In this document: piece by piece, positions 24,881-29,217 of the stretch | Numbering within the stretch: position 1 is the stretch's first letter | Layout of the letters: each line of letters begins with the position of its first letter | NCBI GenBank assembly: GCA_020072815.1 | Contig: JAIQGE010000024.1 | Coordinates: 1 to 60,308 of the forward strand | DNA: 60,308 nt | Direction: 5' to 3' | Origin: Terriglobia bacterium | GTDB taxonomy: Bacteria > Acidobacteriota > Terriglobia > Terriglobales > Acidobacteriaceae | Notes under the pieces: model-generated | What the model was told of the DNA's origin: nothing | Seen by the model: the letters and a program-made list of their open reading frames with translations, nothing else | Databases searched by the model: none | Translations under genes and position numbers: made by a program

Positions 24881-25513
24881 ATGGACTTCCTGTTCACCCC
24901 CTGGCGCTACGCCTACGTCACCACCGCGGAGCAGGCCCAGGGCTGCCTGTTTTGCCGGGTTGTAGGCCACAAAAATGAGCAAGGCAAGACCGCCGACGCC
25001 AAAAAAGCCGAAGAGCGGACGACAGACGACGCGGGGAAAGATTCCGCCCGGACGGGCTCGGCCCAGAGTGGCGAAGGCCAGTCCCAAGCTCAGCCCGACG
25101 CTCCATCCCAGTCCGAATCCGCCGCCGAGTCCGACGCCAAGAACATGATCGTCCACCGCGGCCGGCACTGCTTCGTCATCCTGAACACCTTCCCCTACAC
25201 CAGCGGACACGTCATGGTGGTCCCTTACCAGCACGTTGACCAGCTGCTCAAGCTGCCCGCTCCCGCCGCCCAGGAAATGATGGAGTTGACCCAGAAGATG
25301 GAAGGCATCCTGCGCGAGCTGTACCGCCCGGACGGCCTCAACCTGGGCATGAACCTTGGAAAAGCCGCCGGCGCCGGCGTGGCCGGCCACATCCACATGC
25401 ATATCCTGCCACGATGGGTGGCCGACGCCAGCTTCATGAGCGTGGTGGGCGAAACGCGCATCCTGCCGGAAGATTTGGCGACGACGTACAGAAGAATCAG
25501 GGAAAAGTTCTAG
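24881..25513 (+). CDS. HIT-family nucleotide hydrolase/transferase with long linker
   Basis: This 210-residue protein has the histidine-triad motif HIHMH at residues 170-174 and the N-terminal block MDFLFTPWRYAYV. A CxxC pair (22, 25) precedes the split. Homologues hydrolyse or phosphorolyse dinucleoside polyphosphates such as Ap4A. An Ala/Gln/Ser/Lys-rich segment at about residues 31-87 interrupts the fold between the CxxC and the IVHRG strand. It is probably a disordered insertion of about 55 residues. It is divergent from rpsA across 370 bases. Confidence 0.9.
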   Translation: MDFLFTPWRYAYVTTAEQAQGCLFCRVVGHKNEQGKTADAKKAEERTTDDAGKDSARTGSAQSGEGQSQAQPDAPSQSESAAESDAKNMIVHRGRHCFVILNTFPYTSGHVMVVPYQHVDQLLKLPAPAAQEMMELTQKMEGILRELYRPDGLNLGMNLGKAAGAGVAGHIHMHILPRWVADASFMSVVGETRILPEDLATTYRRIREKF

Positions 25514-25889: not shown

Positions 25890-26918
25890 ATGAAGATTAT
25901 AGGCTGTGATTTCCATCCGAGTTTCCAGCAAATTGCGATGGTCGACACAGAAACAGGAGAACACACGGGACGGAGGCTGACCCGGGAGGAAGCGGCTGAG
26001 TTCTACCGCGGACTCTCTGGCCCGGTGATCGTAGGCATGGAAGCCTGCGGCAACACGCTGTGGTTGGAGCGTCTGCTGGCCGAACTAGGCCATGAGCTGC
26101 GGATGGGCGATGCCGCCAAGATCCGGGCCATGGAGGTGCGCAAGCAGAAGACCGACCGACGCGACGCCGAGTTGTTGTTAACGCTGTTAGTCGAAGGCCG
26201 GTTTCCCCAGGTGTGGGTGCCGGGCCTGGAGCAGCGGGACACACGGCAACTGCTGCTGCATCGGCAAAAACTGGTGAGTGTGCGCCGGCAGATCAAGAAC
26301 CAACTGCAGCACCTGGCGCTGAACCAGGGAGTCCAGCAGAAGCGGAAGCTGTGGACGCAGAAAGGCCGCCAGCTGTTAGAGGAGTTGCCTTTGACGGGCT
26401 GGACGGCGCGGCGGCGTGCCGATGATCTGCAGCTGCTGGAGCAGTTGAATCGCAGCATCGCGGAACTGGATACGGCGGTCGAGCAGGCCGCGGCCCAGGA
26501 CGGGATCGCGCGACTGCTCCAGACCCATCCCGGAGTCGGACCGATCACGGCTCTGGCCTTTGGGTTGACGCTAGGCAGGGTCGACCGTTTTGCTCACAGC
26601 AAGCAAGTAGTCAGCTATCTGGGATTGAATCCAGCCGAGCACTCCAGCGGCGGCCGGCAACGGCTGGGGAGTATCAGCAAGCAAGGCAATCCCATGCTAC
26701 GCAGTTTGTTGGTGGAAGCGGGCCAGAGCGCGGCCCGTCTGGTTCCGGAATTAAAGCGCGCCTATCAGCGGCTCAAACACAGAAAGCATGCGGGAGTCGC
26801 CAAGGTCATGGTAGCGCGCAAACTGGCGGTGCGGCTGTACTGGATATGGCGAACACAACAGCCTTACTCCGCCACTCGCATGCAGGGTAGCCCGAGTCAT
26901 CTTGTGGGGGAAGGTTAA
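25890..26918 (+). CDS. IS110-family transposase
   Basis: This 342-residue DEDD recombinase is of the IS110/IS1111 family. The RuvC-like N-terminal domain has Asp7, Glu51, Asp89 and Asp92 in the expected order, the last two in KTDRRDAELL. The C-terminal Transposase_20 domain contains THPGVGPITALAF, then SYLGLNPAEHSSGGRQR with the family's serine region. The ATG at 25890 has GAAAGGAG upstream; an earlier in-frame ATG at 25848 is not favoured. The frame is intact, so the element may be active. Confidence 0.93.
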   Translation: MKIIGCDFHPSFQQIAMVDTETGEHTGRRLTREEAAEFYRGLSGPVIVGMEACGNTLWLERLLAELGHELRMGDAAKIRAMEVRKQKTDRRDAELLLTLLVEGRFPQVWVPGLEQRDTRQLLLHRQKLVSVRRQIKNQLQHLALNQGVQQKRKLWTQKGRQLLEELPLTGWTARRRADDLQLLEQLNRSIAELDTAVEQAAAQDGIARLLQTHPGVGPITALAFGLTLGRVDRFAHSKQVVSYLGLNPAEHSSGGRQRLGSISKQGNPMLRSLLVEAGQSAARLVPELKRAYQRLKHRKHAGVAKVMVARKLAVRLYWIWRTQQPYSATRMQGSPSHLVGEG

Positions 26919-27366: not shown

Positions 27367-29121
27367 CTACCATACTACGTACTTAAAGGTATCGCCGTCA
27401 GTGTTGGCCTTAATGAAGAATGAGTTCCGGACGCAATTGTCAATCAGCGGATTGTCCTGGCCTTCGCAAGCCTGCATGAGCGGATCGACGATCACCACTT
27501 TGAACGAGTGGCCATTGACCCAGCCGTTGTGTCCGATGAGGTTGATCGTGTCCGGATCCGCGGGCTGCCCGTTCTCATCAAATGGGCACGATCCGTCTTC
27601 GGCATACTGCGTCTTCATTCGCGCTGACAGCCAATAGCCGGCGGCGGGCAAGTTGAGATCAAGAAGATATACGCTGATGCTTCGGTGCTTGCCGACCCGG
27701 TCCACGTCGCTATTGCAATTGTTGACCTCAAGCTTGGCGTACCCCACCGGCGAGGGCGGCCCCGGCGGAGGCGGACCAGCCGGGCAGCGGAGAACGCCGT
27801 TGTAGTTCTCAATCCTTCCTGCGCAGGTCTGATAGTTTGCCAGGGTCGTAGGCAGCCAGTTCCCTTGCGGTGTTTCGCACAGGGCCTTGAGAACGGTCCC
27901 TGCCACCACAATGTTCCGGCAGCTCTTCAGGTAGGACCCTGCAGGCTCAGGTCCATTGCCTTTGGGGCAGGTCAGAAACCCGTGGATGTTGGCGATGTCG
28001 CCGGTGCATCCGCGCACGTCGAGGCTTGAGGTTTGCGCCAGGACTCGAGTGGAGCCGGTGACGCAGCTCGCCGTCAACGTAAAATCAGTCATTGCTATGT
28101 TGCTGCATGACTGGCGATACGACCCCTGTGGCGGAGGCTGGTTCCCAAACGTACACACCAGCGTTCCGCCGTGGTTCTCAATGGAGCCGGGCAGGCAATG
28201 GGAAAATTGCGTGAGTTGCGCCGTTGCCATGCCACCGCCGGCGGTCTTGCAATGGGCATTCACGGTGTCGCCGCTGACCCACATATCGCTACAAGTTTGC
28301 TGATAGGAACCGCCGGGCAGCGGTAATTTGTTGCACGTGAGCGCCCCGTTGAAATTGAAAATATCGCCCAAACACCACCCGAACATGTCAATGGCCCCGG
28401 GAAACCAGCCACCAGACCCATTCGGGCAAGACGCGTGCAGCACGGTCCCGTCAACCCATATGTCACGACAACTTCCCATGTAGGAACCGCGGGGTGTGGC
28501 GCCGCCGAGGTTGCAGTGGAGCTGTCCATCCTGGTTCTGGATATCGCCGCGGCATCGCGAGATGTCGGGGATCGTGCTTGAAACCCAGCCGCCATTGCGG
28601 TTCTGACAATTGGCGTGCAAGGTCTGGTTGTCGAGCCAGATATCACGACAGCTCGCAGTATAGGAACCGCCGGGTGGTGTTGCTCCGCGGTCGCACCGGA
28701 GCTGGCCTTCCTGGTTTTGGATGTCGCCGCGGCATTGCGAAATATTGGGCAGAACGCTGGTAATCCAGACGCCACCACGGTTCTGACAACTCGCGTGCAA
28801 CGTCCCGTTTTCCAGCCAGACATCACGGCAGCTTCTGGTGTAGGAGCCTCCAGGAGGGGCCGCGCCGCGATTGCATCTGAGTTGGCCATCTTGATTCTGA
28901 ATGTCGCCGATGCACTGGTGATAATTGGGTAGTGACGTATTGGGCCAGTTACCGCTGCGTGTGCGGCATTGAGCGGAGAGCGTGCCCCCGTTGGCGCTCA
29001 TGTTGCGGCAGCTCTGTTGATAAGACCCGCCCGGAAGATTGTCGGCCAGGCACTGCTGCGCGGCTACGGCCAGCAGGATTGCGATGAAAAAGGCAAAAAG
29101 CAGAATCGGGCTGCGGCGCAT
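27367..29121 (-). CDS. Secreted protein with seven cyanovirin-N-type half repeats
   Basis: This 584-residue protein has a signal peptide (1-26). Seven units of about 60 residues begin near residues 31, 91, 151, 211, 270, 332 and 394. The consensus opens GGSYxxSCRDIW, continues TLxAxCxNxxGxW, and ends CxGDIxNxxGxLxC. This matches one half of the cyanovirin-N homology (CVNH) fold, a mannose-binding lectin normally built of two such halves in about 100 residues. Each unit holds four cysteines, so two disulfides per unit are likely. After a proline-rich linker (449-459), an unassigned domain of about 125 residues closes the protein. The start is ATG 29121 after AAGGAGAG. It lies downstream of ligA but is probably transcribed on its own. 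Glycan binding at the cell surface is inferred. Confidence 0.82.
   Translation of the reverse strand: MRRSPILLFAFFIAILLAVAAQQCLADNLPGGSYQQSCRNMSANGGTLSAQCRTRSGNWPNTSLPNYHQCIGDIQNQDGQLRCNRGAAPPGGSYTRSCRDVWLENGTLHASCQNRGGVWITSVLPNISQCRGDIQNQEGQLRCDRGATPPGGSYTASCRDIWLDNQTLHANCQNRNGGWVSSTIPDISRCRGDIQNQDGQLHCNLGGATPRGSYMGSCRDIWVDGTVLHASCPNGSGGWFPGAIDMFGWCLGDIFNFNGALTCNKLPLPGGSYQQTCSDMWVSGDTVNAHCKTAGGGMATAQLTQFSHCLPGSIENHGGTLVCTFGNQPPPQGSYRQSCSNIAMTDFTLTASCVTGSTRVLAQTSSLDVRGCTGDIANIHGFLTCPKGNGPEPAGSYLKSCRNIVVAGTVLKALCETPQGNWLPTTLANYQTCAGRIENYNGVLRCPAGPPPPGPPSPVGYAKLEVNNCNSDVDRVGKHRSISVYLLDLNLPAAGYWLSARMKTQYAEDGSCPFDENGQPADPDTINLIGHNGWVNGHSFKVVIVDPLMQACEGQDNPLIDNCVRNSFFIKANTDGDTFKYVVW
27781..29031 (-). 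repeat. Seven tandem coding repeats of about 180 bases
   Basis: These are the DNA copies of the CVNH-type units. Units 1 to 4 keep an exact 60-codon period, and units 2 to 4 are the most alike, suggesting recent duplication. Units 5 to 7 are diverged in sequence and spacing. Confidence 0.85.
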
Positions 29122-29217
29122 CTAGCTCTCCTTTTTTTTGACCCATCTCCGGACCGCTTCAGGATTTGCGAAGCTGGCCGGCGCCAGTGGCGATTGTACG
29201 CTCCTGGAGTGGAACGC

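Follow-up and report, generated by a model that had tools for sequence, protein, structure and literature searches.

Can a cyanovirin-type half repeat fold and bind sugar on its own, or does it always need a partner? Cyanovirin-N (CV-N) is the standard case of a lectin whose sugar sites are built jointly by two halves: its repeats are strand exchanged, the three-stranded part of one combining with the hairpin of the other, there are two sugar sites, and valency has been raised by engineering. The question is raised anew by a gene in a 60,308-nucleotide stretch of DNA from a Terriglobia bacterium (assembly GCA_020072815.1, contig JAIQGE010000024.1), here called the window. A first-pass annotation had described an array of seven consecutive units of the CV-N homology (CVNH) type at positions 27781 to 29031, each of about 60 residues with four cysteines, and had offered two readings of the odd number: pairs forming 3.5 domains, with one unit left for dimer formation, or units that each fold alone.

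The array itself was confirmed. All seven units lie in one minus-strand open reading frame (ORF) of 584 codons (27367 to 29121), with an ATG start at 29119 to 29121 and a stop codon at 27367 to 27369. By unit profile and unit alignment, they occupy, on the minus strand, 28873..29028 (unit 1, residues 32 to 83), 28693..28848 (unit 2, 92 to 143), 28513..28668 (unit 3, 152 to 203), 28333..28488 (unit 4, 212 to 263), 28153..28311 (unit 5, 271 to 323), 27967..28125 (unit 6, 333 to 385), and 27784..27939 (unit 7, 395 to 446); units 1 and 2 were also covered by a structure model. Unit starts are thus spaced by 59 to 62 residues, and of the 33 cysteines in the ORF, 28 fall in the units (four each), one in the N terminus, and four in the C-terminal domain. 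Pairwise unit identity within the array ranges from 33 to 70%, with 70% between units 2 and 3 and 52% between units 1 and 7. Residues 1 to 27 (29041..29121) read as a signal peptide-like N terminus, MRRS followed by a long hydrophobic run, and the protein is seemingly secreted. Beyond what had been annotated, the ORF runs on for about 130 residues past unit 7, comprising a Pro-rich hinge (residues 447 to 454, 27760..27783) and a C-terminal domain with four cysteines (residues 455 to 584, 27370..27759).

The CVNH-type identity of the units was borne out by Pfam, NCBIfam, and PDB profile matches. The Pfam CVNH model (PF08881) matched the protein in five stretches at 125.4 bits (cut-off, 24.5; E = 1.8e-36) and was the sole Pfam family at E ≤1 in its whole length, with no LysM insertion as in type III CVNH-LysM proteins. 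NCBIfam model NF052356 (mannose-binding lectin) scored it at 187.8 bits, above the equivalog cut-off of 80, although the model's 103 positions cover only two units. A unit profile built from the window units and related units recovered all seven in a whole-genome search (E = 9.8e-18 to 2.0e-24), while its best candidate outside CVNH genes in the same genome reached E = 0.25; against the PDB, it retrieved CVNH chains with 18 distinct sequences at E ≤0.01. A chance origin of the seven-unit match is excluded. The natural, odd-numbered CVNH array is real.

How such units are built was addressed by alignment and structure prediction. Both cysteines of the presumed Cys1-Cys2 bond are present in 49/49 units of the genus; we take its counterparts in CV-N to be C8-C22 and C58-C73. 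The five PDB alignments inspected, all with forms of CV-N, have a gap at the four columns holding Cys3; compared with CV-N, each unit thus has a small Cys-containing insert ahead of the hairpin and an additional Cys behind it. In the predicted model of units 1 and 2, one unit superposed on composite domain A of 15 CVNH structures at 1.1 to 2.5 Å, with a worse fit for 7 further CVNH structures, whereas the whole predicted pair fitted Foldseek's 25 CVNH chains only at 14 to 19 Å. The structure models, made without a CV-N control, favor, not conclusively, units that are each self-closed with their own sugar pocket.

Sugar binding was judged from the contact residues. CVNH lectins are characterized by binding of Man-alpha-1,2-Man glycans. 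According to PMC8091458, in CV-N the only side chains hydrogen bonding sugar directly are those of Asn42, Thr57, and probably Glu41; Asn42 and Thr57 are the counterparts of Asn93 and Thr7, and changing Asn42 to Ala abolished binding. The contact Asn (N42/N93 position) is present in 49/49 genus units and the contact Ser/Thr (T57/T7 position) in 48/49, and all seven window units retain both. Glu occupies the Glu41 position in 9 of the 49 units and Arg the Arg76 position in 16. Given the retained Asn and Ser/Thr, sugar sites in the units, including high-mannose binding, are plausible from sequence, although the conserved Asn may have a second role in the turn of the hairpin.

A search for other proteins with more than two units yielded relatives with 3, 4, and 6. 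Within the genus, 8/9 genomes carry CVNH genes (by protein search and equally by the Pfam model), encoding 15 proteins, 7 odd-numbered and 8 even-numbered: the seven-unit window protein, five with four units (L014, L019, L021, L023, and L024), five with three (L015, L016, L017, L018, and one of two in L020), three with two (L022, L026, and the other one in L020), and one with a single unit (L025). The L025 gene begins 51 bases from a contig end, yet shows a GGAGGAG site as well as an N terminus resembling a signal peptide. Outside the genus, we found a six-unit protein (G899), a three-unit protein on a Rhizobium lusitanum plasmid, a two-unit protein whose second unit is incomplete near a contig end (G936), and one-unit proteins in which the unit stands at the start of a longer chain (G625 and G966). 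The latter two are 35% identical across a 245-residue span, a recurrent one-unit architecture. The NF052356 cut-off was also passed by the six-unit protein and the one four-unit protein tested, while the tested 1-, 2-, and 3-unit proteins scored below it or were unmatched.

The relatives also indicate how unit number changed. A CoA-transferase III gene lies within 5 kb of two-unit L022 and L026 and of three-unit L016 and L017 (Pfam was run on the L017 copy); the contig of L015 (G402) is too short to judge this neighbor. The unit tree places the first and second units of the two-unit proteins with units 2 and 3 of L015 to L017. From the common neighbor and the tree, unit number therefore seemingly changed by one between related genes. 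The opposite flank differs, with MurJ at L015 to L017 and RecG at L022 and L026, and this counts slightly in favor of pairing. In both long arrays and in 8/10 shorter ones, a unit resembles its immediate neighbor more closely than the next but one, L015 and L016 showing the opposite trend. On balance, the evolutionary module looks like the single unit and not the pair.

We consider it somewhat more probable than not (probability, about 0.53) that the array protein is a multivalent, secreted CVNH-family lectin whose half repeats fold singly and carry one sugar site each. In each unit of about 52 residues, the hairpin would double back onto the three strands of the same unit, with the four-residue Cys-containing insertion ahead of it leaving the chain room to turn. 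A Cys3-Cys4 disulfide would staple the hairpin and a Cys1-Cys2 disulfide the strands, if the presumed pairing holds, and the Ser/Thr before Cys1 together with the hairpin Asn would form one complete sugar pocket per unit. Seven pockets on a flexible string, with short Pro/Gly-rich linkers and the orphan C-terminal domain at the end, would bind more avidly to dense glycans of the mannose type, possibly of fungal wall mannan, a glycoprotein, or an exopolysaccharide, and the protein may serve as an adhesin or agglutinin. The wider proposal of a natural single-repeat cyanovirin fold, that is, a self-closed, two-disulfide unit of about 52 residues with one whole pocket, occurring in strings of 1 to 7, draws on the models and is put forward more tentatively, at a little short of even chances.

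The most serious alternative retains canonical strand exchange: units 1-2, 3-4, and 5-6 would form three CVNH domains, and unit 7 would pair with that of a second molecule, giving a dimer with 14 sites. The matched solved CVNH structures are indeed two-repeat proteins or tandems of such, and the middle linker is the longest in 5/5 four-unit proteins. Moreover, type III CVNH proteins accommodate a LysM domain between their repeats (PMC4926178), and long linkers would therefore be compatible with strand exchange. However, odd counts in 7/15 genus proteins, the existence of single-unit proteins, the 2- and 3-unit relatives beside a common neighbor, and the mostly neighbor-wise similarity all speak against paired units, and strand exchange was not seen in the models. 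We regard pairing as possible, but appreciably less probable than single-unit folding. With homologues of 1, 2, 3, 4, 6, and 7 units, the common neighbor gene, and the structure models taken together, the annotated option of units folding alone is thus favored over that of 3.5 paired domains with a dimer, though not conclusively.

Alternatively, the protein could be a disulfide-rich component of the envelope or matrix that reuses the CVNH fold and has lost sugar binding. This would suit the extra Cys pair per unit, the mostly altered Glu41 and Arg76 positions, and the gene neighborhoods, since nine Pfam-checked neighbor proteins of genus CVNH genes were mostly housekeeping and included no sugar-active enzyme. 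Retention of both contact side chains throughout the window array, and nearly throughout the genus, nevertheless makes such a loss unlikely, even if the Asn may be structural. Tandem repeats are also prone to misassembly, and the unit count is known from the assembly alone, so that repeats might have been collapsed or expanded to a wrong array length. But the most similar DNA repeat in the array has 74% identity across 180 bases, too divergent to confuse, and the frame is open, with a ribosome-binding site and with ligA and diacylglycerol kinase (DAGK)-like neighbors as in 4/7 relatives' ligA regions; an artifact is very improbable.

The array gene lies downstream of ligA in the same direction, and the 96-base intergenic gap contains the putative ribosome-binding site AAGGAGA (29127..29133, minus strand). 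By Pfam, its neighbors in the window encode DNA ligase, a HIT protein, an IS110-type transposase (25890 to 26918, near the array gene), a DAGK-like protein, and a YdjM-like protein, and no known system around the array gene was found among those put to Pfam. ligA is present in 9/9 genus genomes, but the array was absent from all seven ligA regions compared, out of eight in the other genomes (G403 being left out); six of the seven were informative, the G400 contig ending 363 bases past ligA. Both the DAGK-like and the YdjM-like gene are found close to ligA in 3/7 regions, and the DAGK-like gene alone in a fourth. As the array is missing from this partly conserved block elsewhere, its gene looks like a local addition. 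The HIT-family protein (24881 to 25513) contains a charged low-complexity stretch of about 48 residues (35 to 82), which is skipped by matches in 7/9 genus genomes.

The C-terminal domain has no convincing relative. Searches of Pfam (E ≤5) and of PDB sequences (E 10) returned nothing for it, and its matches in NCBIfam (E = 0.049) and PHROGs (E = 0.14) were all subthreshold; among 41 relatives and 399 class genomes searched, its own genome was the sole match. The six-unit relative (L055) ends in a different C-terminal domain of two similar-looking halves, without a Pfam match. In four-unit L019 (L019:1467-2390), an Asp/Arg-rich linker of about 50 residues joins units 2 and 3, and a similar stretch occurs in single-unit L025 of the same genome. 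The two longer one-unit proteins, which come from different families (L056:1235-4708 and L079), look secreted and have a further conserved region in common. On the R. lusitanum plasmid (L058:5965-8147), the three-unit CVNH gene immediately precedes another gene, whose product we take to be an LGFP-repeat protein.

CVNH genes look rare outside the genus. Phylum-wide, the Pfam model found CVNH in 1/396 genomes, that of the window. With the unit profile, CVNH units were found in at least 9/300 genomes of the family (2/79 genera); further samples gave at least 4/399 in the class (3/135 genera) and at least 2/200 in the family of G899. These three counts are minima, as the first filter scored part of the candidates, and the samples overlap. 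Of two genome-contig scans, the first gave none and the second three loci, from Acidobacteriaceae, Terriglobia, and Acidobacteriales metagenome bins. The named records of relatives make a soil bacterium the probable host; one of the three named metagenome-bin relatives bears a trench-depth label. A link to phages or mobile elements was rejected. Neither 50,697 phage records nor viral contigs, scanned twice by pattern, gave a match, and 1/72,556 plasmid records did (R. lusitanum). The IS110-type transposase gene is close to the array gene, but no mobile unit containing the array emerged.

With the known CVNH lectins (PF08881; PDB 1iiy, 5k79, and 2jzk, among others), the array protein has in common the sequence family, the order of secondary structure, the Cys1-Cys2 pair, and the sugar-contact Asn and Ser/Thr. 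It differs in having seven units instead of two and an extra orphan C-terminal domain, and, compared with CV-N forms, in the second Cys pair, the four-residue insertion, and units predicted to be self-closed instead of strand exchanged. Engineered tandems (CVN2L0, CVN2L10, and Nested CV-N) also carry more than two repeats per chain for multivalency, but these are man-made from complete CV-N pairs, and the tandem crystal forms are domain swapped, whereas the array is natural, odd-numbered, and made of four-Cys units. Type III CVNH-LysM proteins (PDB 2l9y) likewise place CVNH repeats in a modular protein, but as a single CVNH interrupted by a LysM domain and not as an array. The seven-unit string looks new within the known CVNH family. 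No multi-unit or single-repeat bacterial CVNH protein appeared in titles or abstract openings from full-text literature searches, which did not extend to subscription papers, and priority is not established.

The natural series of 1, 2, 3, 4, 6, and 7 units makes it possible to test directly whether a single repeat folds and binds alone and how avidity rises with unit number, and the array family bears on the evolution of strand-exchanged folds. If single-repeat folding holds, the unit could be the unexchanged ancestor of the strand-exchanged CV-N pair or a reversion from it, and lectin design would gain a ready-made monovalent building block.
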